A DNA stretch of 64,000 bases from positions 310,001-374,000 of the forward strand of contig NZ_VKAB01000002.1 of NCBI RefSeq assembly GCF_009769385.1, written 5' to 3'. Under the pieces are notes generated by a model. It worked only from the letters and a program-made list of their open reading frames with translations. It was not told the DNA's origin and did not search any database. This DNA comes from Saccharothrix deserti (GTDB taxonomy: Bacteria > Actinomycetota > Actinomycetes > Mycobacteriales > Pseudonocardiaceae). This document shows positions 7,287-59,448 of the stretch, one piece after another; positions within the stretch are counted from its first letter, which is position 1; each line of letters begins with the position of its first letter. A program made the translations under genes and the position numbers.

Positions 7287-7594
7287 GTGACGGACACCGC
7301 CGGCCGGCTGCTCGCCCTGCTGTCCCTGCTGCAGACGCCACGCGAGTGGCCGGGCAGCGAGTTGGCGCGGCGGCTGGAGGTCAGCCCGCGCACGAGGTGC
7401 GTGCCCGGCTCGGTGCGACCGAGGTCGAGGTGGTCGACGAGCGGACGTGCCGGCTGCGCCTCACCGACACGGTGGAGTACCTGGCGTTCCACCTCGTGCA
7501 GCTGGGGTGCGAGTTCGAGGTGCACGAGCCGCGCGAGGTGCTGGAACACCTGCGCGAGGTGCACGGCCGGATCGGGCGCGCGATCGACGGCTGA
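7287..7594 (+). pseudogene. Internally deleted WYL-domain (PafC/YafY-like) regulator
   Basis: Only the two ends of a regulator normally ~320 residues long remain. The first ~36 codons (GTG at 7287) encode an intact helix-turn-helix start: LLALLSLLQTPREWPGSELA and RRLEVSPRT. The reading then shifts. From about 7395, in another frame, the C-terminal WCX-type tail continues with RLGATEVEVVDERTCRLRL, YLAFHLVQLGCEFEVHEP and LEHLREVHGRIGRAI, ending at 7594. The WYL core and linker (roughly 220 residues) are missing. The junction lies in a GC-rich stretch near 7390 with ACG on both inferred sides. It cannot make a working regulator as sequenced. Confidence 0.85.
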
Positions 7595-7604
7595 ACGCCG
7601 GGGC

Positions 7605-7838
7605 TCATGCGGCGACGGGGTCGTGCGCGGCGTCCAGCACGGCCCGGCCGTCGGCGGTCAGGCGGGCCGGGCCCGGCCGGGACGCGATCAGGCCCGCGCG
7701 GGCCAGCCGGGGGCCGATGAACTGGTCGCAGCAGCAGATCCCGTCGACCAGCAACGTGCCGGCGGCGTACACGCAGCGGCCCGCCGCGACGGCGCGCAGC
7801 ACGGCGCGGTCCCTGGGGGTGATGGTGGTGGTGTCCAT
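7605..7838 (-). CDS. Small conserved hypothetical protein (77 aa)
   Basis: A 77-residue protein starting MDTTTITPRDRAVLRAVAAG, with ICCCDQFIGPRLARAGLI in the middle and RPGPARLTADGRAVLDAA near the end. The arrangement suggests a small winged-helix-like fold and the CCCD segment may bind metal, but no function is known to me. The ATG at 7838 is chosen because GGAGGGAGA lies about 7 bases upstream; the open frame extends further but without support. It converges on the WYL pseudogene with a 10-base gap. Confidence 0.7.
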   Translation of the reverse strand: MDTTTITPRDRAVLRAVAAGRCVYAAGTLLVDGICCCDQFIGPRLARAGLIASRPGPARLTADGRAVLDAAHDPVAA

Positions 7839-7948
7839 GGCGGTCTCCCTCCGTGCGTCGGGTGTCTCTACCCGTACGACGAAGCGGACCGCCCGGATTC
7901 GACATGTCCCCGAGGAAAACCGGGTGTACCGATCCCGACTCCGCGGAC

Positions 7949-8560
7949 TCAGCCCTCCAGCACCTTGGCGGCCTGCCGGAAGGCGTCCACGAGCTGCGGC
8001 CACCGTCCCGCCCGGTCGCGGTTGATGGACAGCGGTGACGGGTGCGGCGCGTTGAACACCTTCAGCTTGTGGCCGCGGCCGGACAGCGTCCAGCCGGTGC
8101 CCGCGGGCCTGCCCAGCACGACGACCGCCTTGAGCTCGGTCAGCATCCGCAGCAGCTCCACCAGGTACGGCACCGCGGAACGCAGCTCGGCGGGCGTCGG
8201 CTCGCGGTTCGACAGGTACCAGGGCACCACGTTCCAGCTCAGGCACACCCGCCGGGACAGCCCGGCCTCGGTCACCGCGGCGAACGCGTTGGCGGCCGTC
8301 GGGTCGTCGTTGTCCAGGGAGTTGAGGCCGGAGCCGGACTTCGCCGACGCCGACCCCGGTGACTCCAACAGGAGCAGCACCTTCGACCCGATGCCGCCGC
8401 TGGCCGGGTCGAACAGCGGCACGTCGGCCTTGCGCTCGGTGGCGATGCGTTGCGCGAACTCCGTCAACTTGGCCATGTGGGGCGCTTTGAGCAGCGCCTT
8501 CTTCCGTGCGACGACCACGGGGTTGCGGTGGGCCCTCGGCGTGGAGGGGAAGACGTCCAT
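7949..8560 (-). CDS. Uracil-DNA glycosylase family protein
   Basis: The protein belongs to the uracil-DNA glycosylase superfamily, base-excision enzymes that remove uracil from DNA. Visible motifs are KVLLLLESPGSASAK (motif 1 region, where an Asp or Glu normally contacts water), LSWNVVPWYL with the conserved Asn-Pro element, and VFNAPHPSP near the C-terminus (motif with His). The motif 1 sequence LLESPG differs from the GQDPY of family 1, so this is a divergent group of unknown specificity. The ATG at 8560 is preferred over an upstream TTG at 8590, because the conserved region starts soon after it; neither has a strong ribosome binding site. Confidence 0.8.
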   Translation of the reverse strand: MDVFPSTPRAHRNPVVVARKKALLKAPHMAKLTEFAQRIATERKADVPLFDPASGGIGSKVLLLLESPGSASAKSGSGLNSLDNDDPTAANAFAAVTEAGLSRRVCLSWNVVPWYLSNREPTPAELRSAVPYLVELLRMLTELKAVVVLGRPAGTGWTLSGRGHKLKVFNAPHPSPLSINRDRAGRWPQLVDAFRQAAKVLEG

Positions 8561-8624
8561 GGTTGGCAAGCGTTCCCGGACGGCCGGCAACCGACCATCC
8601 GCCGTCCGGGCGGCACCTGTGATC

Positions 8625-9377
8625 TCACCCGAAGACGCTACGGGGCCGTTCCTCCAGGACGCCGTCGACGTACGTGTCGACCTTCTCGTTGTAGAACGCG
8701 ACCAGGCCCGCGACCTGCCTGCTCTCCGGCAGCGGTGTGCGGTAGCCCCAGACGACGTTCTCGTGCACGTCCTCGCCGACCACGACCGACCAGTACTCGG
8801 CGGTGCCCTTGTAGGGGCAGCTGGTGCGCAGGTCGGTGGGTCGGAGCAGGTCCATCCGGACGTCGGTCATCGGCAGGTAGTAGCGGGCCGGGAGGCCGGT
8901 CTCGAACAGGATCACCGGGCGGTGCGAGTCCGCCACCTCGACGCCGCCGACCTCCACCCGGATGTGCCTGCTGCTGGGCAGGGCGTCGACCCTGGTGTAC
9001 GGGTCGCGCGGGTGGACGTAGACCGGCTCGTCCTCCTCGAACCACTCGTCCATCGCGTCCCAGTCCAGCCGGACCAGGTCGCGCAGCGGTTCGAGCGGCG
9101 AGTCCGGGAACCGCAGTGCGGCACCCGGTGCGGTGGCGTTGGCGGTCTTCACGTCGTGCGCGTGACCGTCGCCCCGACTCGGTGACCGCTTCACGTCACC
9201 GGTGGGCACCAGGGTCGCCCTGACGTCCTCCACCGGGAAGTAGTACGTGGGGTAGTACGGCTTCTCCCACACCAACGCCGGCCGCGTCGTGTCGACGACC
9301 AGCTCACCCGCCAGGTAGGCCCGAACCCGCTTGGCCCCGATCTCCACCCGCACCCGTCCGCGTTCCGCAGCGCTCAT
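8625..9377 (-). CDS. Tandem DUF427 domain protein
   Basis: This 250-residue protein contains two copies of the DUF427 beta-sandwich domain. The first spans about residues 8-95 (RVRAYLAGELVVDTTRPALVW and YYPTYYFPVEDVRATLV). The second spans about 145-235 (HIRVEVGGVEVADSHRPVIL, ARYYLPMTDV, TSCPYKGTAEYWSVV). The Cys-Pro-Tyr-Lys-Gly-Thr block is the most conserved part of the family; its biochemical role is unknown. The ATG at 9377 begins MSAAERGRVRVEIG, and the longer open frame upstream looks non-coding. No operon partner is evident. Confidence 0.88.
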   Translation of the reverse strand: MSAAERGRVRVEIGAKRVRAYLAGELVVDTTRPALVWEKPYYPTYYFPVEDVRATLVPTGDVKRSPSRGDGHAHDVKTANATAPGAALRFPDSPLEPLRDLVRLDWDAMDEWFEEDEPVYVHPRDPYTRVDALPSSRHIRVEVGGVEVADSHRPVILFETGLPARYYLPMTDVRMDLLRPTDLRTSCPYKGTAEYWSVVVGEDVHENVVWGYRTPLPESRQVAGLVAFYNEKVDTYVDGVLEERPRSVFG

Positions 9378-9472
9378 GATCCCGACGCTACGCCGCGTCC
9401 GGCCGTCCGCGCAGCCACCGGAGCAGCGGACGACCGCACGCTCCTGGAGTGTCGGCGCTCGGTGGGCGGTGC

Positions 9473-10366
9473 TCACGACGCCGACCGGATCGCGGCCTCC
9501 ACGAACGCCCGCACCACCGGGCTGGTGGTCTCCGGCACCCACGCCACCGCGATCCGCAACGGCTCGATGTCGGCGATCGGCCGCCACGCCAACTCGGGGT
9601 GGGCGTAGTACACCGCCATCGACTCCGGGCCGATGCACACCGCCGCACCGGTCGCGACGTGCTCCAGCATCTCCTCGACGTTGTCGTTCTCCGGACCCCA
9701 CACGGGTTCCGAGCCGTCCGGCCTCGGGTTGACCGCCCACCAGTCGACCCACTCCTTCGGCGCCTTCCGGGTCCACATCAGCGGTTCGTCGCGCAGGTCC
9801 GCGATGCCGACCGACGGGCGTGCCGTCAACGGGTGGTCGCGGGACAGGGCGACGTACCGCGGCTCGGTCGCCACCACCCGGGAGCGCAGCCCGCTGATGT
9901 CCGCGGGCAACCAGACGAACGCCACGTCGACCAGCCCCTGCCGCAGCGCGTCCGGCTCACCGCCCCAGTCGAACCGCTTGGGCTCGATCCTCACCTCGGG
10001 CCGCTGCTCGCTGAACGCCGCCCGCGCCCGCCGCGCCACGCTGCCACCGCCCGAGGCGACGAACCCGACCCGCAGCACGTTCGCCTCGGCCGCCGCCGCC
10101 GAACGGACCAGCCGGACCGTCTCCAGCCAGTCGTCCAGCACCTTCCGCGCCAGCGGCAGCATCTCGCCGCCCGCGCCGGTCAGCCGGATCTCCCGGCCGG
10201 TCCGCACGAACAGCTCCGCGCCCAGGTCCTCCTCCAACTGCCTGATCTGCCTGCTCAGCGCGGGCTGGGAGACGTACAGGTCGCGGGCCGCCCTGGTGAA
10301 GCTCAACCGGTCGGCCACGGCCACGAAGTAGCGCAACACCCTCGTGTCCACGTCGAGAGGACTCAT
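9473..10366 (-). CDS. LysR-family transcriptional regulator
   Basis: A typical 297-residue LysR regulator. The N-terminal winged helix-turn-helix runs over residues ~8-67 with FTRAARDLYVSQPALSRQIRQLEEDLG and LFVRTGREIRLTGAG. A periplasmic-binding-like effector domain follows (about 95-295). The ligand cannot be deduced. It is the downstream partner of the DUF418 gene on the same strand with a 19-base gap, so the two are probably co-transcribed and an upstream target is not obvious. LysR proteins usually regulate a divergent gene, but nothing divergent lies next to it here. Confidence 0.92.
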   Translation of the reverse strand: MSPLDVDTRVLRYFVAVADRLSFTRAARDLYVSQPALSRQIRQLEEDLGAELFVRTGREIRLTGAGGEMLPLARKVLDDWLETVRLVRSAAAAEANVLRVGFVASGGGSVARRARAAFSEQRPEVRIEPKRFDWGGEPDALRQGLVDVAFVWLPADISGLRSRVVATEPRYVALSRDHPLTARPSVGIADLRDEPLMWTRKAPKEWVDWWAVNPRPDGSEPVWGPENDNVEEMLEHVATGAAVCIGPESMAVYYAHPELAWRPIADIEPLRIAVAWVPETTSPVVRAFVEAAIRSAS

Positions 10367-10385
10367 GCCCGAAGCGTATGGGCAC

Positions 10386-11534
10386 CTAGAGCACGGCCGC
10401 CGGGCGTCGTCGTTGTGGCGCCCGGTACGCCTTGTCCCACAGCGTTTCCACCGGGCCGCGCGGGAACCGCCGCATCCACCACGACGCGCCCAGCACCAAC
10501 AGCGCCGAGATCACCAGCCACGTGCCGACGGCGAACACCGCCCCGAGGTGGCCGAAGCGTTGCGCCAGACCGAGGCCCCACTGGTAGCACAGCACGGACG
10601 CGATCACGTTCTGCGCGATGTAGCAGCTCAACGCCGACCGGCCGACCGCCGTGACGCCCCCGCGCACCAGCCCCGGCTCCGGGCGCATCCGGTTCACCAG
10701 CGCGGTGATGCCGCCCAGCAGGCCGAACGCCACCAGCGGCGCACACAGGTAGCGGTCGACGGCGAACCAGTCCGGGCCGGCGACCGTGGTGAGCACGTTG
10801 AGCGGCACACCGACACCGAGCCCCCACACCACCAGCCGACGCTGGATCCGCGCCCCGCGGTCGGAGTCCTCCAGCGCACCGGCCTTGTACAGGCGGGCGC
10901 CGGCCAGGAACAGCACGGTGCTCAGCGGCAGCACGAGGAACCCCTCGGCGCGGAACGCCCCGAAGTACTCGATGCGGTCCTGCACCCCGCTCCACCAGCT
11001 GTCCGTGGCGAGGGCGAGCGCCGGGTCCCCGACCGTCGACCCGCCGGTCAGCAGCGCGACGGTGATCAGGCCGACGACCGCCAGGTTCACCGCACCCATC
11101 GCGATCATCCAGCCGCTCTGGACCCGTGAGCCGCACCCCACCAGGAAGGCGACCAACACCGACACGATCGCGTAGAACATCAGCACGTCGAACTCGAAGA
11201 TCAGCACGTAGTGCAGCAGTCCTTCGAAGAGCAGCAGTGCCGAGCGCCACAGGTACCAGCCTGGCCACCGCTGCCCGCGCCGCACCGCGGAGTCGTGCTG
11301 GATCGCCAGACCGATGCCGAACATGATCGACAGCAGCCCGAGGAACTTGCCGTTCGTGAGCATTTGCAGCAGTGAGTCGACGGTGTCGCCCACGTCCGCC
11401 CCGAAGTCGGAGCCGAAGTCCAGCAGGAAGCCCATCGCCCCCTGCGGGTGTGTGAAAATCCAGATGTTCGAGCCGAGCGTGCCCAGGATGGCCACCCCGC
11501 GCAACACGTCCAACGCCGTGATGCGTCCGCCCAT
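10386..11534 (-). CDS. DUF418 family membrane protein
   Basis: A 382-residue polytopic membrane protein with about ten hydrophobic segments. It starts [23 protein letters not shown], the classic N-terminus of this acyltransferase-3-like family, and ends with the DUF418 domain ([40 protein letters not shown]). The ATG at 11534 has the strong GGAGGGGGAC ribosome binding site directly upstream; 48 further in-frame codons exist but lack support. Its function is unknown, possibly acyl transfer to an extracellular substrate. It is divergent from the urea transporter operon and upstream of the LysR gene. Confidence 0.88.
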
Positions 11535-11792
11535 GTCCCCCTCCAAGATTCGCTTGCGGGACCGAAGGTAGGGCGACGGCAGGCCGTCGATCGTCGGCCG
11601 AAGGTGCGCGGTGATGTCGCACTTTCGGAGGATGGCGGCGGCCATTCGTATGAGGGGGTGAACGCGGGCCGTGAGCACGGAAGGTCACGACTGGATACCG
11701 TGCGGATTTGGCCACACGAACGTAACCTGACGCGCCCGGCCTGCAACTTCCGGTTCATACCTTCGCGGTTCCACTGCCGAAAGGAGCCGCCG

Positions 11793-13025: not shown

Positions 13026-13037
13026 GAGGACTGACAC

Positions 13038-20066: not shown

Positions 20067-21022
20067 CTAGCTCGCGAACAGCAGGGCCAGGCCGCCCGAG
20101 GTGTAGCCGACCATGAGCACCAGCAACGGGACCTGGCCGGTCAGGTGCTTGCGCGGCGGGAACAGCCGCAACGTGCGGTCGTGCGCGGACACCACGGCCA
20201 GCAGGTGCCCGGCGAGCACCGCGCCCACCTGCACCGACGCCACCAGGACGGGTGCGGCCAGGGCGGTGTTCGGTGCGAAGTCGGTGACGCCGAGCAGCAG
20301 CGCGATGCCCCGCTGGCCCTCGACGGCGAGCAGCGAGAAGTAGTGCGCCACGACGTACCCGGCGACGATCGGGATCAGCGAGTGCGCCAGCTGCCCGCCG
20401 AACGACCGGCACGCGAGCAGGTAGCTGCCCGCGACCAGCGCCACCGTCGCCACCAGCCCCACCCAGTCGGGCGCCGTCAGCCGTTCCCAGGTGGGCGTGG
20501 AGCCGATGCTGTCGAACGCGGTCGCCCCCAGGAGCACCGCCACCACCGCGACCAGGCCGGGCCGCACGGGCGTGGCGACGAGCGCGCGGAACGGGTTGCC
20601 GCGCAGCGGCGACAACCGTCCCAGCAGGGTCGAGGACACCTCGAACCCGTCGGCCCGTTCGAACCACGTGCGGCCGAACACCACACCGCCCGCGACGTTC
20701 ACCACCGCGTACACCACCAGGAACCACGGCAGGGCGTCCGGCTCGACCAGCTCGACCCACGTGAACGCCAGCAGACCCAGCGCCGCCGGCCAGTGCCCCA
20801 GCCTCTCGGGGTACGTGCGGCCGAGCGTGACGCGGGCGGCCAGGCGCAGCGGGTTGAGCACCCGCCACACCGGGCCGAACAGCATCGACAGCACCGCCAC
20901 GCCGACCCACAGCAACACGAACACCAGGTGCGGCCACGCCTGCGCGGGCACGAGGAACAGTGCCGCGCGCCGACCCCGTGCGCCAAAACCTCGGGCACCG
21001 TACCGATCGGCCCCTTGCTCAT
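20067..21022 (-). pseudogene. Membrane protein gene with internal deletion and frameshift
   Basis: The original ATG (21022) is recognisable: it overlaps the upstream stop by 4 bases and encodes MSKGPIGTVPEVLAHGVGARH, the conserved start of an actinobacterial polytopic membrane protein family. Right after GARH the family's first ~75 residues (two membrane segments) are missing. The sequence resumes in another frame with ALFLVPAQAWPHLVFVLLWVG and then runs intact to 20067, covering LFGPVWRVLNPLRLA, SSTLLGRLSPLRGNP and AHSLIPIVAGYVVAHYFSLL. A shorter frame from a GTG or ATG near 20951 could still make the C-terminal ~294 residues, but it would lack the N-terminal part. Its function was unknown even when intact. 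Confidence 0.8.
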
Positions 21023-26149: not shown

Positions 26150-26284
26150 ATGGACAAGCTCAAGGCAGGCACCGCCGCGTTCGGCGTCGCGGGCGCGTTC
26201 TTCCTGCTCTACCCGGCGCTGCGGCCCTACTCGGACGTCGGCTGCCGGCTGGTCGCACGGGAGCTGTGGCGGCGCCGGGTCTGA
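26150..26284 (+). pseudogene. Truncated small membrane protein (44 aa), TetR-controlled
   Basis: ATG at 26150 with GGAGA five bases upstream encodes MDKLKAGTAAFGVAGAFFLL then YPALRPYSD. This looks like the N-terminus and first membrane helix of a longer actinobacterial membrane protein usually found beside such TetR genes. After PYSD it continues only VGCRLVARELWRRRV and stops. The normal protein is several times longer with more helices, so most of it appears deleted. The upstream operators and ribosome binding site are intact. A genuine 44-residue single-span peptide is possible but less likely. The ~265 bases between 26285 and 26548 hold no gene I can support. Confidence 0.65.
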
Positions 26285-27814: not shown

Positions 27815-27908
27815 TCATCGTGCGCGGCGAACGGTCTGCTCACAATCCGACGATCGACGGGAATTCTTTTCGCCGGCCCCTGAGGTCTCCACGTGGTTCT
27901 GTTGGGTG

Positions 27909-28522
27909 GTGACGTTCACTTCGGGTGAGGACCGGTGGCGGTCCCGTCTCAACAGCCTCCGCCAGGTCGTGCGGCAGGAGGTGGTGGCGCGCCAGTTGGC
28001 CGCCCACGTGCCGACGGGCGGGTCGGTTCTGGACGTGGGCTGCGGGCAAGGCACACAGGCTCTGCGGTTGGCCCGACACGGGCACCAGGTAACGGGATTG
28101 GATTCGTCGACCACACTGCTGGCCGACTTCTCCGACGCCCTCGCGGCGGAGCAATCGGACGTCCAGGCCCGAGTCCACTTGCTGCGGGGCGACGCACACA
28201 ACCTCCCGTTCCCGCCCGGCAGCTTCGACTTGGTGCTGTGCCACGGAGTCCTGATGTACTACCCCTGGGAGACCTGACGAACGCATTCGCCGCGCAGGGA
28301 TTGGTGGTGCGCACCTGGTACGGCGTGCGAGTGTTCACCGACCACCTACCCGAGGACGCCCCGCTCCCCGACGAGCAGACACTCGCCGCACTGCTCAAGT
28401 GCGAAGAACGCGCCGGCACAACGGATCCGTACCGACAGGTGGCCGCGTTGACGCACGTGATCGCCGAGCGGAGTGAGCTCAACAACTTCCACGAAGTGGT
28501 TGCGGCACAAGGGAATCCGTGA
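27909..28522 (+). pseudogene. SAM-dependent methyltransferase with internal deletion and frameshift
   Basis: The N-terminal half is intact from GTG 27909: DRWRSRLNSLRQVVRQEVVA, motif I VLDVGCGQGTQALRLARHG, then GDAHNLPFPPGSFDLVLCHGVLMYY. At about 28268 (after YYPWE) the frame ends. The family's C-terminal part then continues in another frame (from about 28270: DLTNAFAAQGLVVRTWYGVR, FTDHLPEDAPLPDEQTLA, YRQVAALTHVIAERSE) to 28522. Intact relatives have about 70 more residues between these pieces, covering the end of the Rossmann fold. The deletion plus frame change should abolish activity. Confidence 0.82.
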
Positions 28523-28601: not shown

Positions 28602-29791
28602 ATGGATCTCTCCCGCCCGCTGCTCAACGAGGACGCCGTGTTCGCCGCCGGCGCGGCGGTCGAGGCGTCCATGCGGGCGATGCACCGGCAGCGCCTGGAA
28701 TTGCTCGCCCAGGTACTGCGATGCGGCTACGACCTCGACTCCTACCAACGAATGCTGCGCGCGAACCCGGCCGACATCAAGCAGTGGATCAAGCAGGTCG
28801 ACCTGTTCCTACCGTCGATCAGCCCCACCGGACAACAATTGCCGCCCCTGCACCCGGCAACCGGCGCCGCCCTGGCCGAACAGGACCTCGGCGACGGACA
28901 CCTGCGCGAGCTGACCCGAGCGATCAGCACCCTGAAACTGCCCGACTGGTCCGAGGAAACCCTGGTCGAAGCCGCCCGCGCGGTCGAACCGAAAGCGGTA
29001 CGACACCTAGCCGACCGCATCCGCGACCGCGCCGACCAGGACGAGATCGACGAACTCGACGAGCCCGCCGCCGAACCGGCGGACGTGCTCCACACGCGGG
29101 ACTGCCCGGCGGACGCGTCGAATTCTGGGGCGAACTGTCGGCCGAAACCGGAGCCCGGTTCACCGCAATGCTGGAGCCGTTGTCACAGCCACGCCCGGAC
29201 GGCCCGAAGGACCGCGCACATCGCCTGGGCGAGGCGTTCGGCGATCTCATCGCACTGGCCTCGCGATCGGAGCACCTGCCCTCGGAGGCCGGGGAACGCC
29301 CGCACATCAGCATCACCATCGACCTCGACACGCTGCGACGCGGTGTCGGACACGCGGTGCTCGACGGCGACCACTACCTCAGCGCCGCCCAAACCCGCCG
29401 CCTCGCCTGCGACGCCAAGATCATCCCCGCCGTCATGGGCGGCGACTCCGAAGTACTGGACCTGGGGCGGACGAAGCGAACCGTCAGCGTGGCGCAGCGC
29501 AAGGCACTGCACACCCGCGACCGGGGCTGCGCATTCCCCGGCTGCCCCCGCCCACCGAAATGGTGCGACGCCCACCACGTCAAGCACTGGGCCGACTGCG
29601 GCGACACGGACCTCGACAACCTGGTCCTGTTGTGCCGCACCCACCACAGCCTCATCCACCACTCACGCTGGCAGATCTCCATGACCGGCGGCGTGCCGAC
29701 GTTCATCCCACCCCGCCACATCGACCCCGCCCAACTACCCCGCCAGAACCTGCTCCACCGACCACCCATCGCCATCGCCATCGCGGCGTGA
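28602..29791 (+). pseudogene. 13E12-type DUF222/HNH endonuclease gene with one-base frameshift
   Basis: The 5' part (ATG 28602, ~165 codons) encodes the DUF222 helical domain (MDLSRPLLNEDAVFAAG, LPDWSEETLVEAARAVEP, HLADRIRDRADQDEIDEL). From about 29098 the homology jumps to another frame (GLPGGRVEFWGELSAETGAR) and runs to 29791. This second part has the HNH nuclease motif: CAFPGC, WCDAHHVKHWADCGDTDLDNLVLLC and HHSLIH. A single lost G in a run near 29098-29101 restores one 396-codon frame. This is either a real frameshift or a sequencing error. Such proteins are abundant in actinobacteria and often occur in mobile or repeated copies. Confidence 0.85.
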
Positions 29792-30497: not shown

Positions 30498-30506
30498 GCC
30501 GGAATG

Positions 30507-30530
30507 GGCCGCCCTCGGGCGGCCTTTTCT
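30507..30530 (+). terminator. Intrinsic terminator after TetR gene
   Basis: GGCCGCCC at 30507-30514 pairs with GGGCGGCC at 30517-30524. The sequence continues TTTTCTTC. It lies 10 bases after the TetR stop, so it should end that transcript before the carotenoid oxygenase fragment. Confidence 0.85.
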
Positions 30531-30543
30531 TCGGCCGCAAGAG

Positions 30544-30561
30544 TGAGTGTTCAACCAGTCA
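30544..30561. promoter_or_regulatory. Second TetR-like palindrome, upstream of carotenoid oxygenase fragment
   Basis: TGAGTGTTCAACCAGTCA is an imperfect 18-bp palindrome that shares the TGAGTG start and spacing with the site in front of the TetR gene (29906-29923). It lies 30 bases before the ATG at 30591, where repressor binding would control the downstream gene. Confidence 0.5.
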
Positions 30562-30590
30562 TAGATGCAGCCGGGAAGAGAGGAGGCATC

Positions 30591-30971
30591 ATGACGACCA
30601 CGACCACCCGCTGGGGCCCGTTCACCGTGCTGGCCACCGCCGGGTTCCTGGTCGTGCGCGGCACGTTGCCGCCCGAGTTGCGCGGTCGCTACCTGCGCAA
30701 CGGCCACAACCCGAAGCCCGGCGTCACGCCGAGCCACTGGTTCAAGGGCAGCGGCATGGTGCACGGTCTGCGCCTGGAGAACGGCCGTGCCGAGTGGTAC
30801 CGCAACCGGTGGGTGCGCACGCCCGACCTGACCGCGAGCGTCGCCGGCACGCACGTCATCGAGCACGGCGGGCTCGTGGATCCCCGACGCTCGTTGACGC
30901 GGGACCGGGCCGATCTCTACGTTCGGGAGGGACACCGCCTCGTCAACGTCGTCGAGGAAAGGGCTTTCCCC
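30591..30971 (+). pseudogene. Carotenoid oxygenase N-terminal fragment, fused in frame to GH16-like gene
   Basis: ATG 30591 has an AGAGAGG ribosome binding site upstream. The first ~98 residues match the N-terminus of carotenoid cleavage dioxygenases: LVVRGTLPPELRGRYLRNGHNPKPG, SHWFKGSGMVHGLRL, AEWYRNRWVRTPDL, GTHVIEHGG. Intact enzymes have ~450-480 residues with four iron-binding His residues, all beyond the break. At about 30885, next to a GGATCC, the homology ends. A ~28-residue stretch of unclear origin (LVDPRRSLTRDRADLYV...) then runs in frame into the GH16-like gene. The fragment cannot bind iron. The fusion frame is open over 393 codons but is probably accidental. Confidence 0.75.
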
Positions 30972-31769
30972 GTGACATTGAGTCGACGTGGTCTCCTGGT
31001 GGCAGGCGGTGCCGGACTGGCCGCGCTTGGCACGTCCCGGTTCGCCGAGGCCGCCACCTGGGAGACCGTCATCAACGGTTCGTTCGCCAACTACAGCACG
31101 CTGGAATCGGCGTGGAACTACCGCTACCCGTGGGGTTCCGACCACAACGGCACGGCCCGCATGTACGCGAGCGCGTCCGACCACAACCACGTGTACCTCG
31201 AAGGGTCGACGCTGGTCATCAAGGCGACCCGGATCAACTGGAACGAGGGCAACAGTTCCAAGGACCCGTACCTGCCGATCCGCTACCACTCCGGCGCGGT
31301 GCACGCCAAGCAGCACGTGCTGGTCAACGACCAGTTCCCGGAGTGGGAGGTCAAGGGCGAGTTCCAGGCGCCGTCGGCACGCGGCACGTGGCCCGCGTTC
31401 TGGCTCACCGGGGTGAACTCGTGGCCGCCGGAGAGCGACATCCTGGAGTACAAGGGTGACGCGCGGAACTGGTTCAACACCTACAAGAACGCCTCCGGCG
31501 GGTGGTCGAACACCATCCGGTCGGTGTCCAGCCCCGGGTCGTGGCACACCTACCGGGCGTGGATCGCCAAGGTGAGCGCCACGGACGTGGACATCCACTA
31601 CTACCTCGACGGCACGTGGGTCGGGCAGCACCGGGGCGCGAACTTCGTCGGCAAACCGATGTGGATCATCATCAACCTCCAGATGGAGGGCTCGTCCGGT
31701 TCGTCGGGTCCCACCTCGGACACCTACTACCGGGCCCGCAACATCTACGTCGGCCGCAACCGCGCCTAG
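30972..31769 (+). CDS. Tat-exported GH16-like (beta-glucanase-type) glycoside hydrolase
   Basis: A ~265-residue protein starting at GTG 30972. It has a twin-arginine signal (LSRRGLLVAGGAGLAALGTSRFAEAA) with AGGAAAGG as a possible ribosome binding site. The mature domain is a concanavalin-like beta-sandwich typical of GH16 and related lyases: NHVYLEGSTLVIKATR, GAVHAKQHVLVNDQFPEWEVKGEF, TWPAFWLTG, then WPPESDILEYKG. In the last, the Glu-x-Asp-x-x-Glu arrangement (ESDILE) matches the GH16 catalytic EIDxxE with Ser in place of Ile. It ends with a strong terminator. The enzyme probably cleaves an extracellular polysaccharide; the exact substrate is unknown. The reading frame is open upstream into a carotenoid oxygenase fragment. 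Confidence 0.8.
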   Translation: MTLSRRGLLVAGGAGLAALGTSRFAEAATWETVINGSFANYSTLESAWNYRYPWGSDHNGTARMYASASDHNHVYLEGSTLVIKATRINWNEGNSSKDPYLPIRYHSGAVHAKQHVLVNDQFPEWEVKGEFQAPSARGTWPAFWLTGVNSWPPESDILEYKGDARNWFNTYKNASGGWSNTIRSVSSPGSWHTYRAWIAKVSATDVDIHYYLDGTWVGQHRGANFVGKPMWIIINLQMEGSSGSSGPTSDTYYRARNIYVGRNRA

Positions 31770-32309: not shown

Positions 32310-32703
32310 GTGGTGGACGTGGGGTTCGCCGTGCGCGCGAACGGTCTGGGCATGCGATATCGCCGGCGCCCGGCACGGTGACCGCGCTGGTCGGCGCGAA
32401 CGGCGCGGGCAAGAGCACGCTGCTGATGCTCGCCGCCGGGTTGCGGCAGCCGACCGCAGGTGCTGCTGCTGGACGAGCCGCTGTCCGAAATGGACCCGGT
32501 GGCGCGGGAGGTGACCACGCGGGCGCTCATGGTCGCGGTCGCCGAGACCGGGGTGACCGTGGTGCTGTCCTCGCACGTGGTCGCGGAACTGGACGGCGTG
32601 TGCGACCACCTGCTGCTGCTCGACCGGGACGGCGTGCGACTCGATGGTGACGTGGACCAGCTGATCGAGGACCACCGGGTGGTGGTGGCGGTGCGGGAAG
32701 GCG
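32310..32703 (+). pseudogene. ABC transporter ATPase remnant with two internal deletions
   Basis: Three pieces in three frames survive. The N-terminus runs from GTG 32310 (VVDVGFAVRANGLGMRYRRR), then meets a stop at 32379. The Walker A region follows in the next frame from ~32372 (GTVTALVGANGAGKSTLLMLAAGLRQPTA). The Walker B and H-loop region is in the third frame from ~32460 (VLLLDEPLSEMDPVAREVT, VVLSSHVVAELDGVCDHLLLL) and ends around VVVAVREGG. The parts between (about 15 residues before Walker A, and the ~90-residue helical domain with the signature motif) are missing. GGGGGA precedes the first GTG. It was probably the GntR-controlled transporter ATPase. Confidence 0.82.
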
Positions 32704-32960
32704 GTGAAGCTCACGCCCGGTCTGTTCGTGGTGTACCTGCTGCTGACCGGCCGGATCAGGGCGGCAGTGGTGGCGGGTGGCACGATGCTCGGCACGGTCG
32801 GGCTCGGGTTCGCCCTGCTGCCGGACGAATCGCGGGCGTACTGGGGCGGCGTGTTCTTCAAGTCGTCGCGGATCGGCTCGGACGTCTACTACTTCGGCAA
32901 CCAGTCGCTGCAGGCGCTGCTGGGACGCCTGGTGTTGGCGAAAACCGCGCGGAACCGGCC
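32704..32960 (+). pseudogene. Internal fragment of a GT87-type mannosyltransferase
   Basis: Directly after the ABC remnant, one frame encodes VKLTPGLFVVYLLLTGRIRAA, ALLPDESRAYWGGVFFKSSRIG and YYFGNQSLQALLGRLV. This is a recognisable middle segment of polyprenol-phosphomannose-dependent membrane mannosyltransferases (GT87/DUF2029), which normally have ~400 residues and about ten helices. Neither the N-terminal catalytic Asp region nor the C-terminal helices are present. Homology ends around 32940 and the frame runs into the next gene's promoter. It is an orphan fragment with no start of its own. Confidence 0.75.
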
Positions 32961-44848: not shown

Positions 44849-45133
44849 GTGGTGGAGTTGTTCGACCCGCGCGAGGCCGACGCGACGGATCTGGCCGGGC
44901 ACTGGGTGGTGCGGGACGGCACGGGGATCGTGGCGTCCTACGCCGCCGCGCGGAGCGCGATCCACGACGCGCCAATGGGGGCGACCGAGTTCAACCATCC
45001 CGAGTGGACGGTCGAGCGGGTCCGCGAGACCGAGGCCGAGCTGCGTCGGGACAACGTGGAGCAGCGGGCTGAACGGCCGTCGCGCACACCGGGCAGTCCG
45101 GTGCGGCTCGGTCCGGGACGCCGAGCGACGTGA
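44849..45133 (+). CDS. Hypothetical protein (94 aa) overlapping the AfsR-like gene
   Basis: A 94-residue protein starting with two GTG codons (44849) behind a good GAGGAGG ribosome binding site. It runs VVELFDPREADATDLAGHWVVRDG, then SYAAARSAIHDAPMGATEFNHPEW and a basic Pro-rich tail. No family is recognised. Its last ~143 bases lie antisense to the 3' end of the large AfsR-like gene. The N-terminal ~70 residues look like a normal folded protein, while the tail (RPSRTPGSPVRLGPGRRAT) may be non-conserved read-through. Confidence 0.55.
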   Translation: MVELFDPREADATDLAGHWVVRDGTGIVASYAAARSAIHDAPMGATEFNHPEWTVERVRETEAELRRDNVEQRAERPSRTPGSPVRLGPGRRAT

Positions 45134-47987
45134 ACCCCTCGGCCGCCGCACGCCAGGAGCGCACGGCTTCGTCGTGCCGCTCCAACGCGCACTCCGCCCG
45201 TGCGGCCCCGTGGTGTCCGCGTGCTTCCTCGTACCGGTCCCCCACCCGGCGGGCGTATTCGAAGTGCCGCAACGCCAGTTCCGGCTCGCCGGTGGCGAGG
45301 CGCAGGAGGCCCAGTTGGTGCCGGACCTCGCCGCGCAACGGCAGGTCGTCCACGACCGCGCTGACCGCCAACGCCGCGTCGAGGTGGTCACGCGCCTGGC
45401 TCAACTGCCCGCGCGCCAAGTGCACCGATCCCAGCCCGCACAACGCCTCCCCCTCGTGCCGGTGGGCGCCGAGTTCGCGGAACCGGACCAAAGCGTCGCG
45501 GTAGTGGGCGGTCGCGCGGTCGGGTTCTCCGGCCTGGCGGTGGACGTGTCCGAGGTTGAGGGTGGCGGCGGCGATGCCGAAGCGGTTGACGAGTTTCTCG
45601 AACGCGGTCAGGGCGCGCTGGCCGTGGTCGAAGGCGCGGGTCGTGTCTCCGAGCCTGAGGTGGAAGCCGCCCAGCGCGGTGTGGGCGACGGCCTCGCCGA
45701 ACGCGTCGTCCAGGTCGAGCCGCAGTGCCAGCACCCGGTCGCCCTGTTCGACCGCGTCGCGGTACCGGCCGGTGAGGTAGTGCACGATGGCGATGTTGGT
45801 CAACGTCCGGGCCGCGCCCGCGTGGTCGCCGAGTTCTTCCCGCAGTGCCAACGCCTCTTCGTAGGCGTCCAACGCGTCGGCGTGCCGTTGGGCCGTGTGG
45901 TGGGCGACGCCGAGGGCGTTCAGCAGTTCGGCCTGCACGCGGGGATCGCCGAGGACGCGTGCGGATGCCAGGCCGATCTCGTGGGTGGCGGTCCAGTCGT
46001 CCACCAGGACGAGGGTGAACCAGTGCCGCCACAGCACGTTCGGCAGCCGCCAGGCGTGTTCGTGCAGTCCGGCGGAGGCGGCGAGGCGGGTGGCCGCGAC
46101 GAGGTTGTGCCGTTCGGTCTCCAGCCACCGCGCGGCGGTGTCGCGGTCGCCGGAGTCCGCGTCGGTCTCGACCGCGGCCACCGCCGTCGTCGCCCGCTCC
46201 AGGTACCGGTCGAGCACCCGGACCACGGCGACGCGTCTCTCCTCGGGATCGGCCGGCTCGGCGGCGTACACGCGCAGCAGGTCGTGCAGCCGGTAGCGGT
46301 CGAGTCCGATCTCCTCCACCAGGTGCCCGGAGGCCAGCACGGCGAGCTGGTCGTGCACGTCCGCCCCTGCCGCCGCGGACGCGGCCTCCGCGTCGAAATC
46401 CGGTCCCGGTAGCGCGCTCAGCCGCCGGAACAGGCACGCCACGTCCGACGGTAGCGCCTGGTACGACCACGAGAAGACGGCCCGGACGGCGGAGGACGGG
46501 TCGTCGGGTGGTGACAGCAGGTCGATCCGCCTGGTCTCGTCGGCCAACTGCCCGGCCAGCGCCTTGAGCGTCACGGCGGGCCGCCGCACGGCCCGGTGCG
46601 CCGCGACCCGCAGCGCCAGCGGCAGGCCGCCGCACAGGGCGACCAGTCGTGCGGCGGCGACCGGCTCGGCGTCCACCCGCCTGCCCAACACAGCGCGCAG
46701 CAACGCCACCCCGTCGTCCGGTGACAGCGGCACGACGGCGAACGGGTGGGCGCCGTCGCGGGCCGCGCGCCCGGCGAGTTCGGCGCGGCTGGTCACCACG
46801 ACCGCGCACCCGGTCGCGCCGGGCAGCAGCGGCCGGACCTGTTCGGCCGACCGGGCGTTGTCCAGCACCACCAGGACCCGGCGGTCGGCGAGGAGTGACC
46901 GGCACAGCGCCGACCGTTCGGCCTCGCTCTCCGGCACGTGGTCGCGGTGCACGCCCAGTGCGTGCAGGAACTCGGCCAGCACCGCGCGGGGCGGCACGGG
47001 TTCGCCGGCGCCGTGGCCGCCGAGGTCGGCGTAGAGCTGGCCGTCGGGGAACCGGTCGGTGACGCGGTGCGCCCAGTGCAGCGCGAGCGCGGTCTTGCCG
47101 ACGCCGGGTGTGCCGACGAGCGCGATCACGACGGGTCCGGTGGTGGGTGTGGCGAGCAGGTCGTCCAACGCGGTCAGGTAGTCGTCGCGGGCGACGAGTC
47201 CACCGGCGGCGGGCAGTTGGCGGGGTGTGGGCGCGGCGGCGGGGGTCGCGGTGTCGGCGTCGTCGAGCAGCCGCTGGTGCAGGTGCCGCAGGTCCGCGCC
47301 CGGTTCGACGCCGGCGTGCTCGACGAGCAGCCCGCGCAGCCGCCGGTAGACCTCCAGGGCCTCGACCCGCCGGCCGCAGCGGTGCAGGGCGAGCATCAAC
47401 GCGCCCGCCACCCGTTCCCGGCCGGGGTGTTCGGCGGCCAGCGCGGTGAGCTCGCCGACCACGTCGTGGTGCCGGCCCAGTTCCAGGTCGGCCTCGATCC
47501 GGTCCTCCAGGGCGGCCAGGCGTTCCTCGGCGAGCGCGACGACCAGCCGGTCGCGCAGCGGGCCGTCGGCGGTGTCGGCCAGCGCGACGCCGCGCCACTC
47601 GGCCAGGGCCGCCGCGAGCAGCCGCCGTCGCACCGCCACGTCCGGACAGGCCCGCGCTTCCGCCGTGACCGAGCGGAACCGGTGCAGGTCGACGTCGTCC
47701 GGGTCGATGGCGAGCCGGTAGCCGCCGCCCGCGCTGACCAGTCCGACGCCCAGCCCGCCGAGCAGCTTGCGCAGCCGCGACACGTAGACCTGGAGCGTGC
47801 CGCGGGCGGTGGGCGGCGGCACGTCCCACAGCGCCTCCGCCAACCGCGCCACCGGCACGACCCGGCCGGCTTCGGAACCGAGCACCGCCAGCACGCACCG
47901 CAGCTGCGGGCCGGGCACGGGGATGAGGCGGCCCGCGTGCGCCACCTCGACCGGCCCCAGGATCGCCAACCGCACCGTGCCCCCCAT
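44991..47987 (-). CDS. AfsR/SARP-family transcriptional regulator with NB-ARC and TPR domains
   Basis: A 998-residue multi-domain regulator. Order: OmpR-like DNA-binding domain (~5-95, LAILGPVEVAHAGR, LAEALWDVPPPTARGTLQVYVSRLRKLLG), bacterial transcriptional activation domain (~100-245), NB-ARC ATPase (~270-560; Walker A GTPGVGKTALALHW, Walker B RVLVVLDNA, GLPLALRVAAH), then about seven TPR units (~690-960, for example ALGVAHHTAQRHADALDAYEEAL). This is the AfsR type, a pleiotropic or pathway-specific activator of secondary metabolism. No biosynthetic cluster is visible nearby. The last ~45 codons are low-complexity and overlap a gene on the other strand by 143 bases. Confidence 0.9.
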   Translation of the reverse strand: MGGTVRLAILGPVEVAHAGRLIPVPGPQLRCVLAVLGSEAGRVVPVARLAEALWDVPPPTARGTLQVYVSRLRKLLGGLGVGLVSAGGGYRLAIDPDDVDLHRFRSVTAEARACPDVAVRRRLLAAALAEWRGVALADTADGPLRDRLVVALAEERLAALEDRIEADLELGRHHDVVGELTALAAEHPGRERVAGALMLALHRCGRRVEALEVYRRLRGLLVEHAGVEPGADLRHLHQRLLDDADTATPAAAPTPRQLPAAGGLVARDDYLTALDDLLATPTTGPVVIALVGTPGVGKTALALHWAHRVTDRFPDGQLYADLGGHGAGEPVPPRAVLAEFLHALGVHRDHVPESEAERSALCRSLLADRRVLVVLDNARSAEQVRPLLPGATGCAVVVTSRAELAGRAARDGAHPFAVVPLSPDDGVALLRAVLGRRVDAEPVAAARLVALCGGLPLALRVAAHRAVRRPAVTLKALAGQLADETRRIDLLSPPDDPSSAVRAVFSWSYQALPSDVACLFRRLSALPGPDFDAEAASAAAGADVHDQLAVLASGHLVEEIGLDRYRLHDLLRVYAAEPADPEERRVAVVRVLDRYLERATTAVAAVETDADSGDRDTAARWLETERHNLVAATRLAASAGLHEHAWRLPNVLWRHWFTLVLVDDWTATHEIGLASARVLGDPRVQAELLNALGVAHHTAQRHADALDAYEEALALREELGDHAGAARTLTNIAIVHYLTGRYRDAVEQGDRVLALRLDLDDAFGEAVAHTALGGFHLRLGDTTRAFDHGQRALTAFEKLVNRFGIAAATLNLGHVHRQAGEPDRATAHYRDALVRFRELGAHRHEGEALCGLGSVHLARGQLSQARDHLDAALAVSAVVDDLPLRGEVRHQLGLLRLATGEPELALRHFEYARRVGDRYEEARGHHGAARAECALERHDEAVRSWRAAAEGFTSLGVPDRAAPDCPVCATAVQPAAPRCPDAARPRSRGPARPSTRDG

Positions 47988-50838: not shown

Positions 50839-51019
50839 GAGCCGCCTCCTCCACCGCCGCCGGGCACCTGTCCCCCACTGGTACCCGGTTCGACGGTAAC
50901 TCCCACCCGTCGGCGGCCGACAGTGTCAGGACCCGAACGCCTCGATCACCGACGCTGTGTCCACGCTGCCGTCGGTCCTGCTCGGCGGCGGCCCCATCAC
51001 GAGGGGCGGGGTCGGCGGG

Positions 51020-51828: not shown

Positions 51829-51862
51829 TCTCGTTTGCGGGCGGTGGGCGTCGACGCTCACG

Positions 51863-54477: not shown

Positions 54478-54481
<4 letters not shown>
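53630..54481 (-). CDS. ABC-2 type transporter permease
   Basis: A 283-residue permease of the ABC-2 class with six membrane helices (from ELMGWLWLPVVALVVMYAFG to VVALGAWAVVGFALAPVVLRR). It contains the typical cytoplasmic loop DREDGTLLRAKATPNGVFAYVVGKVLG and the conserved FPMYWLGLGLRS. The GTG overlaps the ATPase stop by 4 bases. With the ATPase it forms an exporter of the DrrAB type, often used for drugs or lipids. The neighbouring tandem-MerR regulator and its operators suggest drug-induced expression. Confidence 0.9.
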
Positions 54482-55371
<890 letters not shown>

Positions 55372-55373
55372 GC

Positions 55374-55471
55374 CTTCAACCGTATCGTTGAAGTTCGTTG
55401 TTGAGACTTTTCGGGAATCTCCTCCGGCCCAGCTGGGTAGACTGCCTCGCAACCTTCAAATTCGGTTGAAG
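55374..55471. promoter_or_regulatory. Two matching operators for the tandem-MerR regulator
   Basis: CTTCAAC-N6-GTTGAAG at 55374-55393 is a perfect 7-bp inverted repeat, just upstream of the ABC operon start. CTTCAA-N6-TTGAAG at 55454-55471 is a second copy, 26 bases upstream of the regulator's GTG. Same half-site, same spacer length, centres 79 bp apart: one regulator should control both divergent units. Confidence 0.82.
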
Positions 55472-55496
55472 TCGACTGCCTACCGGGGGTGCCGTC

Positions 55497-56186: not shown

Positions 56187-57622
56187 CCGGTCGTCCCGGT
56201 CGCCGAGCGCAAGCGGATCAGGCGGGCGATCGCGGTCGTCGTGCCGGACAGTGCCAGTAAGAGGAGGGTGATCGTCAGTGGTGCCGCGAAGTAGGTCAGT
56301 TGGGCCCAGGTCACGGTGCGGCCGTTCACCACGATCGAGATCAGGTCCGGGTAGGCCGCGAACACGGCCGCCGGCAGGAGTAACGGGACGAAACGCGGGG
56401 CGACCCGCCACGGCGCCGCGCCGGCACGGCGTCGTGCCCACCGCTGTGAACGCCACACGCCCAGGACGCCGAGTCCCACGGCTGCCAACGCGATCAGGCC
56501 GAGCACCAGTTCGACGAGCTGTCGGCCGCCGCCGACCTCGTCCGGTTGCCGTCCCTGGCTCAGCGCGACCAGCCCGTTGAGGATGTCGTACGTGTCGTCG
56601 TGCAACGACGCGCTGTTGGTCATGACCGCGACCCCGTACCCACTGCCGGGCACGACGGCCTGCACCGCCGCGTAGGTGAACAGGTTCCCGGGGTGCACCA
56701 GCATCTCCACGCCACCCGGGCCCTCGTCCGGCATCCAGCCCATGGCGTAGTCGTCCACAGTGGACGATGTGTGCATGGTTCGCAGGCCCTCCGGCGACAC
56801 GAGCTGCGCACCGTTGCCGGTCTGGCTGATCAGCCACTTGCCCATGTCCGCGGCCGTGGTGATGACTCCGCCGCCGCCGCTGGAGTCCAGGAAGCCGGGC
56901 AGCTCGCGTCTGGAGAGCCAGGCGCCGAACACCGAGTTGTAGCCGTCGGCCGGTGCGATCTCCTGTGAGGACACCGTGCTGCGCGACATGCCCAGCGGGC
57001 CGAAGACCCGGTCCTTCAGGTACTCGCCGAAGGATCGGCCGCTCGCCACCTCCACCAGGCGGGCGGCCAGGTCGTAGTTGACGTTGCAGTACTCGTAGCG
57101 GGTCCCGGGGTCGGCGGCCAGCGACGCGGAACCCAGTCCGGCGGTGTACTCGGCGAGCGATGTCGCGTCCTCCAGGGCCGTCACGTCGATCGTGGTGTCG
57201 GAGAAGCCCGACGTCTGGTTCAGCAGGTGCCGGACCGTGACGTTCTCGTGGCGGGAGTCGGCCATGGTGAAGCCCGGTAACTGGTCGACGACCGGGGCGT
57301 CGAGCGTGATCCGGCCGTCCTCGACCAGGGTCATCACCGCCATGGCGGTGAACGACTTGCTGACCGAGGCGATCCGCATCGGTGTGTCCGCCGTGACGGG
57401 GGCGCCCGAGGAGTCGTGGCCGTAGCCGGCGGCGTGGACGAGTCGGTCGCCCTTGGTCACCACCACCGACAGACCGGGCAGTCCGGTGCCGTGCACGGCT
57501 TCGGCCATGTAGTCGTCGATGCTGGTCGGGGTCGGTTCGGCGTGGGCGGCCGGGTGCGGGGCAAGCGTTGCCGCGACGGCGATCACGACGCCGGCCAGCG
57601 GGCCGAGCAGGGTGGCTTTCAT
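56168..57622 (-). CDS. Secreted/membrane serine hydrolase (class C beta-lactamase-like)
   Basis: A 484-residue protein of the penicillin-binding/class C beta-lactamase fold (Beta-lactamase family). A signal peptide (ends HAEPTPT, ~residue 29) leads into the hydrolase domain (~30-350), with nucleophile Ser86 in SVSK (SxxK, residues 86-89), Tyr in YEYCNVNY (the YxN motif) and HPGNLFTYAAVQ for the third motif. The C-terminus adds four hydrophobic helices (~370-475), making it membrane-anchored with the active domain outside. Likely a D-aminopeptidase or esterase of cell-wall or lipid substrates; the physiological target is unknown. Confidence 0.88.
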   Translation of the reverse strand: MKATLLGPLAGVVIAVAATLAPHPAAHAEPTPTSIDDYMAEAVHGTGLPGLSVVVTKGDRLVHAAGYGHDSSGAPVTADTPMRIASVSKSFTAMAVMTLVEDGRITLDAPVVDQLPGFTMADSRHENVTVRHLLNQTSGFSDTTIDVTALEDATSLAEYTAGLGSASLAADPGTRYEYCNVNYDLAARLVEVASGRSFGEYLKDRVFGPLGMSRSTVSSQEIAPADGYNSVFGAWLSRRELPGFLDSSGGGGVITTAADMGKWLISQTGNGAQLVSPEGLRTMHTSSTVDDYAMGWMPDEGPGGVEMLVHPGNLFTYAAVQAVVPGSGYGVAVMTNSASLHDDTYDILNGLVALSQGRQPDEVGGGRQLVELVLGLIALAAVGLGVLGVWRSQRWARRRAGAAPWRVAPRFVPLLLPAAVFAAYPDLISIVVNGRTVTWAQLTYFAAPLTITLLLLALSGTTTAIARLIRLRSATGTTGQSRGR

Positions 57623-57715
57623 GGTTGTGAATCTAGGAATCGGTGCGGTGCCGGGACATCTGGCGATCGGCCAGAGTCACCCTTGACGAAAGTCATAGAC
57701 GGGACTTGGCGACCG

Positions 57716-58483
57716 TCAGGGTTTGACGATCCGGTGGAACTCCGCGCCGGCGATCAGCCGGGTCCCGCCCGCCGGGTGGTCCTCACGGAGACCGCGCAGC
57801 ACCCGGCTGCGGAAATCGGTGCGGTCCGCGGGGTCCAGCGCGTCGTACAGCCAACGGTTGCCGTGCGACATCAGCCACGCCCAGTGCGCCTCGGGCCCGT
57901 CGATCGGCAACGACACTTCGGTGGTGGTGCGGGAGACGTGGTGCAGGCCCGCACGATCGGCGCGGGATTCCCACGTCACCGGCTCGTACGGCGTCGAGTC
58001 GCGGACCCGGCGCGCGAACTCGTCCACGATCCTCCCGTACGCCGCCCACCAGCCGGCGTCCGCGCTGGGGCCCGGCACCGAGAACGCGAACACCCCACCG
58101 GGCTTGAGCACCCGCGCCACCTCGGCGAACGCCGCGTCGGCATCGGGCAGGACGTGCACGAGAAAACCGCTGAGCACCACGTCGAACGACGCGTCGGGCA
58201 GGTCGAGGTCCTGGGCGTCCAGCAGCCGCGCGGGCACTTCGGGCACGGCTTCGCGCAGCGCGTCGAGCATCGCCGTCGACACGTCACCCGCCACCACCGA
58301 ACAGCCCGCCCGGACGAGCGCCGCGGTCACCGCGCCCCGTCCCGCGCCCAGGTCGAGCACCCGTGCACCGCGCGCCGGGCCCACCCACTCGACCAGCCGG
58401 TGGCCGAACGTGGCGAAGAACGGCACCGAGCGGTCGTAGTCGGCGGCTACCCGGTCGAACAGCTCGGCACCGAAATCGGTCAC
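57716..58483 (-). CDS. Class I SAM-dependent methyltransferase
   Basis: A 255-residue cytoplasmic methyltransferase. Motif I is VLDLGAGRGAVTAALV, followed by VVAGDVSTAMLDAL, then LDLPDASFDVVLSGFLVHVLPD (motif II/III region) and ARVLKPGGVFAFSVPG. The C-terminal part is unremarkable. The substrate cannot be deduced; UbiE/small-molecule type is likely. The GTG is 35 bases upstream in the transcript from no partner; it follows the damaged GH92 gene on the same strand with a 9-base gap. Confidence 0.9.
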   Translation of the reverse strand: MTDFGAELFDRVAADYDRSVPFFATFGHRLVEWVGPARGARVLDLGAGRGAVTAALVRAGCSVVAGDVSTAMLDALREAVPEVPARLLDAQDLDLPDASFDVVLSGFLVHVLPDADAAFAEVARVLKPGGVFAFSVPGPSADAGWWAAYGRIVDEFARRVRDSTPYEPVTWESRADRAGLHHVSRTTTEVSLPIDGPEAHWAWLMSHGNRWLYDALDPADRTDFRSRVLRGLREDHPAGGTRLIAGAEFHRIVKP

Positions 58484-58492
58484 GTCCGGAGG

Positions 58493-59448
58493 CTAGGGCG
58501 CGGTCCCGCCGAGGGCGAACGGTTTTGCCGGGGGCACGTGGTCGACGGGCAGGTCCGTGGTGCCCCACGACGTGTCGGGGGTTGCGGCGACGTCCACGAC
58601 CAGGTCACCGCCGTGGGTCACGAACCGCTCCGACAGCCACGACTTGCCGTGCGCGCGACCGTCGAGCGTCACGCCGTGCACGTAGACGTTGGAAGGCGAC
58701 GCGCCGGGCGCGCTGACGGTGATGGTCGGCGCGCCGTCCCGGTTGATCCTGGCCTTGGGGGACATCGGGCTCGACAACAGCAGTTCCGCCCGGCTCGGCG
58801 TCTGCGGGTACACACCCAGCGCGGCGAACACGTACCACGCCGACATGGTGCCGAGATCGTCGTTGCCGGGCAGCCCGTTCGGACCGGTCCGGTAGACCTC
58901 GGAGGCGATCCCCGGTTCGAGCAGGGCGAGGAGCTGGGTGTGGGCGCGGTACTGGTCCCAGCCGGAGAAGTTGCCGTACTGGGCGCGTTGGCCGCGTTCC
59001 AGGCGGTGGACCCGGCGGTCGCTGCCGAGGTAGGTGCCGTCCACGTCGCTGGTCACGTTGGGTTGCAGGAACGCGTGGTAGAGGGCGGTGTAGAAGGTGG
59101 TGCGCCGCGCGTCCGTGCCGCCGGAGACCTCGACCGCGCGCAGCTGCCGCGCCCACTCGCGGCGGGCGTCGGCGGCGATGTCCTCCACGCCGTCGTGCGG
59201 GCGGATCTCGCGGTCCAGGTTGCGCCTGGCCGCCGAGGCGCTGGTGTACGAGATGCCGACGCGCACGCGCACGTCGTCGTCCTGGGAGGTGTCGAACGTG
59301 ACGTAGCCGCCGGACCCGCCAGCAGAACGACCGCCAACCCCGCCGTGACCACGCGCACCGCGTCCCCCACCCGTCGACTGCCCAACGGTCTACCGAAAGG
59401 GACCCGCCGACCGGAAGCCTCGACGCGCTTTCTGTCCGCTGTTGTCAT
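58493..59448 (-). pseudogene. GH92 alpha-mannosidase gene with two internal deletions
   Basis: GH92 enzymes are ~750-1000-residue secreted exo-alpha-mannosidases. Here the start is preserved (ATG 59448; a signal-like stretch VRVVTAGLAVVLLAGPA), but ~250 residues of the N-terminal beta domain are missing. After a frame change the sequence resumes at YVTFDTSQDDDVRVRVGISY and runs through SGWDQYRAHTQLLALLEPG. There a second gap, in frame, joins IASE to VYRTGPNGLPGNDDLGTMSAWYVFAALG, losing ~300 residues of the (alpha/alpha)6 domain including part of the catalytic centre. The C-terminal module follows to 58493. A 259-codon frame stays open but cannot be a working enzyme. Confidence 0.82.

Follow-up and report, generated by a model that had tools for sequence, protein, structure and literature searches.

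Genes that keep their ends and lack their middles may have lost them in the bacterium or in the assembly, and a 64,000-nucleotide stretch of Saccharothrix deserti (the window; positions 310001-374000 of contig C2 in genome G000, a 10.83 Mb assembly of 162 contigs) raises this question at seven loci. Comparison with related genomes makes it very probable that these loci are genuine pseudogenes and fused genes that arose by deletion, and we hold the losses themselves to be real with about the same high confidence. The comparison suggests that the window can be trusted, its short frames looking like erosion in progress and not like missing data; their annotation should read pseudogene or fusion.

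The search across the genus took in 25 genomes, G000 among them, and the missing pieces were defined through chained alignments and tblastn with the longer proteins of relatives (matches shown have at least 62% identity). The closest relative compared, G016, was aligned with G000 over 264 kb, with a mean identity over the chain of 91.3% and a regional GC content of 71%. Over the window, most genes called by codon usage were of full size, and the calls at most of the named loci were short.

Segment losses at the seven loci

For all seven loci, tblastn located a longer syntenic copy in at least one independently sequenced relative, in agreement with the preliminary description, which had proposed from the letters alone that each had lost a segment. 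The losses range from 34 bp to about 1.8 kb. The relatives did not share the same short frames, and those that hold these genes have them whole or cut at other points. The surviving pieces, together with the intact gene that follows the fifth locus, are as follows.

7287-7394, plus strand: codons 1-36, the first part of a WYL-type transcriptional regulator of 317 codons (100% in tblastn, the query being the intact protein of G016)
7385-7594, plus strand: end of the same regulator, codons 249-317, in another frame (weak WCX hit, below the cut-off)
20067-20966, minus strand: codons 65-362 of a 363-amino-acid protein with no Pfam match (alignments and tblastn)
26150-26284, plus strand: in-frame 44-codon remnant of a 202-amino-acid protein, both ends kept (441 bp lost at about 26236)
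27906-28265, plus strand: methyltransferase, codons 1-120 of 253 (Pfam and tblastn; intact in G016)
28265-28522, plus strand: methyltransferase from codon 184 onward (184-251), in another frame (junction alignment and tblastn)
30591-30652, plus strand: opening codons of an MFS transporter that run into an oxygenase piece (1277 bp missing; tie of 6 bp where they meet)
30647-30877, plus strand: carotenoid oxygenase (RPE65 family), codons about 19-111 (Pfam, tblastn and junction alignment)
30972-31769, plus strand: GH16 glycosidase, intact (full in G005, G015, G014, L064 and L065)
32310-32361, plus strand: ABC ATPase, codons 1-15 (34 bp lost downstream)
32362-32455, plus strand: ABC ATPase, codons 31-60 (239 bp lost downstream)
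32451-32700, plus strand: ABC ATPase, codons 139-220 (1825 bp lost downstream: ATPase end, permease and GT87 start)
32701-32931, plus strand: GT87 glycosyltransferase, codons 171-247 of 402 (downstream loss of 336 bp; second break with a low alignment score)
58493-58909, minus strand: GH92 glycosidase, codons 668-823 (tblastn)
58899-59313, minus strand: GH92, codons 273-408 (flanked by losses of 789 bp and 763 bp)
59307-59358, minus strand: probable first codons of GH92, as the G016 gene start aligns here

At 7287-7594, the loss of 646 bp removed codons 37-248 of the regulator (HTH/WYL/WCX, 317 amino acids) and changed the frame; the gene is intact in G016 and G015 and absent in G005 and G014. 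At 20067, about 471-477 bp are missing, comprising codons 1-64 and 333/339 bp of an upstream gene of 112 amino acids, while seven relatives (G016, G005, G015, G014, G022, L066 and L069) have the protein whole or almost whole. The gutted genes had been described as keeping a proper start, but this locus (20067-21022) has lost its original one. For 26150, G016 has the whole protein and G005 nearly all of it (codons 1-191), the methyltransferase at 27909-28522 lost 190 bp with a change of frame, and GH92 is full in G016 and present as codons 1-795 of 823 in G014. As the preliminary description had it, most breaks change frame: the length lost is not divisible by three at five of the eight breaks that lie within a single gene.

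The locus at 30591-30971 had been taken for one gutted gene, a reading that has to be given up. It combines the start of the transporter with the oxygenase piece, and its open frame meets no stop at 30971 and runs on through GH16 as a fusion of 392 codons (30591-31769), although GH16 has its own start at 30972 and an N-terminus that, judged by eye, is signal-like. About 1438 bp were lost after the oxygenase piece, this second break being poorly resolved. Both the transporter and the oxygenase are full in G015, and L066 carries codons 11-392 of 423 of the former and codons 4-444 of 446 of the latter. As a separate observation, the interval that separates the TetR gene from GH16 (window 30500-30892), occupied in G015 by the transporter and oxygenase, differs in length in several species. 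It measures about 90 to 720 bp in G022, L065, L064, G014 and G005, where no oxygenase pieces were matched by tblastn at 62% identity or more.

At 32310-32960, the ABC ATPase is full in G005 and G014 and nearly so in L068, the permease is found in G005 and G014, and GT87 in G014, where the three genes adjoin one another. Pfam searches of the window recovered WCX at 7397-7594 (below the cut-off), a shortened methyltransferase, the N-terminal part of RPE65, a middle part of GT87 and GH92 in broken form. The same searches on ten longer versions gave near-complete domains for the regulator, methyltransferase, GH92, MFS, RPE65 and GT87 proteins and for a dehydrogenase with a remnant at 50927, and acetyltransferase domains for a gene with a remnant at 44882 (both described in the last section); the longer versions of the 20067 and 26150 genes had no Pfam match.

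Losses in relatives and the deletion junctions

Beyond G016, a further relative carries the long form at 7287, 20067, 26150, 58493, 44882 and 50927, and the long form is found in G015 and L066 for 30591 and in G005 and G014 for 32310; the losses at those loci are therefore derived. Partial-gene gaps were counted over the 264 kb as net gaps of at least 60 bp, with less than 60 bp on the short side, that removed at least 45 bases of a called gene and left at least 45. This coarse and unpolarised count gave 11 gaps in G000 and 11 in G016, with three more in G016, and none in G000, in which sequence had been replaced. The losses at 30591 and 32310-32960, which amount to five more gaps of at least 60 bp in G000 (relative to G015, G005 and G014), are left out of it because the segment is missing in G016.

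Relatives have lost segments of other genes. In G016 (C67, around 892627-892923), an in-frame loss of 747 bp has shortened the ATP-dependent DNA ligase gene, which is intact in G000 (window 6188-7249) and close to full length in G005 and G015, and a gene for a 581-amino-acid protein, nearly full length in G015, carries two cuts in G016. Three clean gaps in G016 fall in a gene cluster that lies at +115.3 to +126.8 kb from the start of the window (G000:C2, about 425300-436800), leaving short gene relics; going by these relics, and without polarisation, the cluster was presumably lost in G016. In G022, a single-contig record, GH16 lacks 111 and 187 bp and GH92 survives as two pieces, and the acetyltransferase of G014 was matched as two pieces only. 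The pattern is thus not limited to the G000 assembly, and clean partial losses at other genes in sister species look like ordinary, ongoing erosion instead of faulty assembly.

An alternative that we consider unlikely is that a special deletion-prone hot spot or system acts in this region beyond ordinary erosion. The 64-kb window holds nine of the 11 G000 gaps found in the 264 kb (binomial p=1e-4) and five of the 11 in G016, and the variable length of the TetR-GH16 stretch would suit such a hot spot. However, the window was chosen for its gaps, which inflates the first probability, and the corresponding value for G016 is p=0.10. No motif common to the junctions was noticed, although no dedicated motif search was made. 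G000 is also not singled out by Ku, known as the bacterial end-joining protein: it has two adjacent matches at G000:C6:425588-427018 and is present in 23 of the 24 genomes searched, so that it is not specific to G000 and explains nothing special about it. We make no claim for a special locus. In G022, dnaA is about 2.5 Mb away from the region, as it is in G005 if that record is circular.

The junctions bear on a second alternative, less likely still, in which GC-rich segments were dropped from the library or assembly and their flanks joined. The G000 genome is in 162 contigs, and at seven of nine window junctions compared the lost piece has a slightly higher GC content than the flanking sequence. 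The difference is small, however, the lost pieces having 69.5-75.2% GC and the flanks 66.1-73.2%, an excess never above 3.7 points where the regional value is 71%. GC dropout was rejected as a candidate, the lost pieces being within the regional range. The G016 losses are likewise GC-richer at four of seven junctions. In all, the window joins share 0-6 bp, which is too short for an assembler overlap. Losses in several independent genomes, namely a similar number of gaps in G016 and other losses in the single-contig G022, are not predicted by an artefact of one assembly. Several of the genes hit are absent or cut elsewhere in relatives, such as the WYL regulator in G005 and G014 and GH92 in G022; the 20067 and dehydrogenase genes are exceptions, being present in all or most of the relatives compared. 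For the two loci of the seven that were searched (GH92 and the WYL regulator), the rest of the 10.8 Mb assembly contains nothing of the lost middle parts beyond distant paralogues of about 64-73% identity and short matches of less than 65 bases. Where the preliminary description left the choice between a deletion-prone process and the loss of GC-rich segments in assembly, deletion is thus retained, as an ordinary process shared with G016, and GC-dependent loss is not.

The G000/G016 comparison provided 33 clean junctions, genic and intergenic, and 26 of these aligned well enough to score. The mean exact microhomology at the scored joins was 2.35 bp, compared with 0.88 bp at random sites, and none of 2000 random sets was as high; one case of 13 bp contributes to this mean (about 1.9 bp without it), not all junctions are polarised or genic, and the reference is about 9% diverged. 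The excess is modest and fits slippage or end joining at short homology. Long microhomology was considered and rejected: blastn overlaps of 11-12 bp at 7384, 32451, 58899 and 59307 held mismatches, and exact alignment left 0-5 bp at nine window joins.

Age of the remnants and selection

No in-frame stop was present in the G000 remnants scored, a set outside which 30591 and 32310-32960 lie, and one was present in G016. The pairwise ratio of nonsynonymous to synonymous substitution rates (dN/dS) of the G000 remnants was 0.10-0.56, plus a 21-codon outlier at 4.78, compared with a median of 0.188 in 178 intact genes, and seven of the nine gutted genes ranked in the upper half of these controls. 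Nonsynonymous and synonymous changes (N:S) were assigned to branches with outgroups, three of the nine genes in each set having no outgroup codons. On the G000 branch, the gutted genes had 53:42, compared with 1348:1907 in 145 intact genes (p=0.006), while the same genes on the intact G016 branch had 35:42, compared with 1837:2691 (p=0.41). The genes gutted in G016 had 19:18 on the branch where they are intact (p=0.24), and pooling both gutted branches gave 86:77 (p=0.003). These counts weakly suggest relaxed selection on the remnants, most of which appear to be young.

Several observations weigh against this account. The evidence for the losses comes from assembled sequence. Two of the nine gutted G000 genes rank low in dN/dS, the rise on the G016 branch for the genes gutted there is not significant (33:35, p=0.21), and omitting the two weakest loci (44882 and 50927) leaves an N:S of 38:34 relative to intact genes (p=0.07). 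The direct comparison of gutted with intact branches for the same genes shows no significant difference (53:42 and 35:42, p=0.22; pooled, p=0.39), which, like remnants that are still well conserved and in some cases have an ordinary dN/dS, would be expected had the segments been dropped in assembly; the concentration of nine of the 11 G000 gaps in the window points the same way. The equality of the gap counts carries less weight for the coarseness and omissions given above, and the G016 gap at 47921 and the G000 gaps at 44915 and 44936 sit where the two genomes hold different genes. For the methyltransferase, only G016 gives an intact comparison.

The weakest alternative, that some remnants are functional short proteins or fusions under selection, is very improbable: the 44-codon frame at 26150 and the MFS-oxygenase-GH16 frame are both open and the loss at 26150 is an exact multiple of three, but the bulk of each ancestral protein is gone, these forms occur in G000 only among the relatives compared by tblastn, the N:S of 3:2 over 43 codons at 26150 is uninformative, and GH16 keeps its own start.

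Pseudogenes with small lesions, read to an early stop, numbered at most nine of 178 aligned genes in G000 and at most seven of 180 in G016, both figures being upper bounds in which several cases look like edge effects of a simple gene caller. In this sample, segment losses occur roughly as often as small lesions, if not more often. Under the deletion account, accessory genes under weak selection would shed stretches of about 30 bp to 2 kb through illegitimate recombination at sites with little or no homology, by replication slippage or end joining, and one gene could take several such cuts. Starts and control signals would survive where the cuts fall inside genes, stops would be few because most remnants are still young, and sister species would undergo the same erosion at other genes. 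The choice of slippage or Ku-dependent joining as the molecular route, and the dispensability of the genes, we infer. A broader proposal strikes us as unlikely, namely that in this genus repeated mid-size segment deletion contributes at least as much to gene death as point lesions do, by way of a low-homology deletion route of unusual activity that occasionally leaves expressed minigenes or fusions (the MFS-oxygenase-GH16 frame, for example).

What the window presents is very probably the known deletional erosion of presumably dispensable genes, in a well-resolved instance from a high-GC actinomycete genus. Work on Salmonella pseudogenes (Kuo and Ochman 2010, PMC2916853) names deletions as the main force of erosion and reports that young pseudogenes predominate; as here, disrupted genes there have full-length counterparts in related genomes. 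A difference is that nine of the 11 partial genes described here lost more than half of their length, in a sample for which the preliminary description and our scan both targeted large gaps. In Haloquadratum walsbyi, many strain-specific deletions at short direct repeats are described (PMC3119063), and the two cases are alike in syntenic genomes, precisely mapped deletions, many of them at short repeats, and truncated genes. The repeats there are 4-20 bp long, with frequent deletion-coupled insertions, whereas exact homology here is 0-7 bp at 32 of the 33 joins, which were chosen for cleanness. Among the literature matches listed, as judged from titles and the starts of abstracts, none has gene erosion in Saccharothrix as its subject, and the match for comparative genomics or pseudogenes in the genus concerns glycopeptide resistance. 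The G000/G016 pair offers a small set of deletion junctions from a high-GC, soil-type actinomycete.

Further remnants and neighbouring genes

The genes next to the seven loci had been called fully intact, which proved too generous, as two remnants had been missed and one neighbour is frameshifted. The remnants are as follows.

44882-45067, plus strand: remnant of a mycothiol-synthase-like acetyltransferase, codons 176-230 (tblastn; full in G016 and G005)
about 50927-50994, minus strand: end of an NAD-binding dehydrogenase, weakly aligned over 21 codons (793 bp lost)

The downstream part of the 44882 site is filled in G000 by a 998-codon BTAD/NB-ARC/TPR regulator (window 44991-47987), which tblastn also found in G015, with one stop and a gap. 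Replacement instead of deletion is possible at this site, and the presence of the regulator where G016 and G005 hold the acetyltransferase gene looks like a gene swap. The dehydrogenase is full or near full length in G016, G005, G014 and G022. No tRNAs or small RNAs were found within the window. The frameshifted neighbour is a DUF222/HNH endonuclease gene (28602-29791), which has a small frameshift near 29115 and no segment loss, and matches of about 1 kb to it, at 73-78% identity, occur elsewhere in the genomes of G005, G014 and G016, out of four relatives searched.

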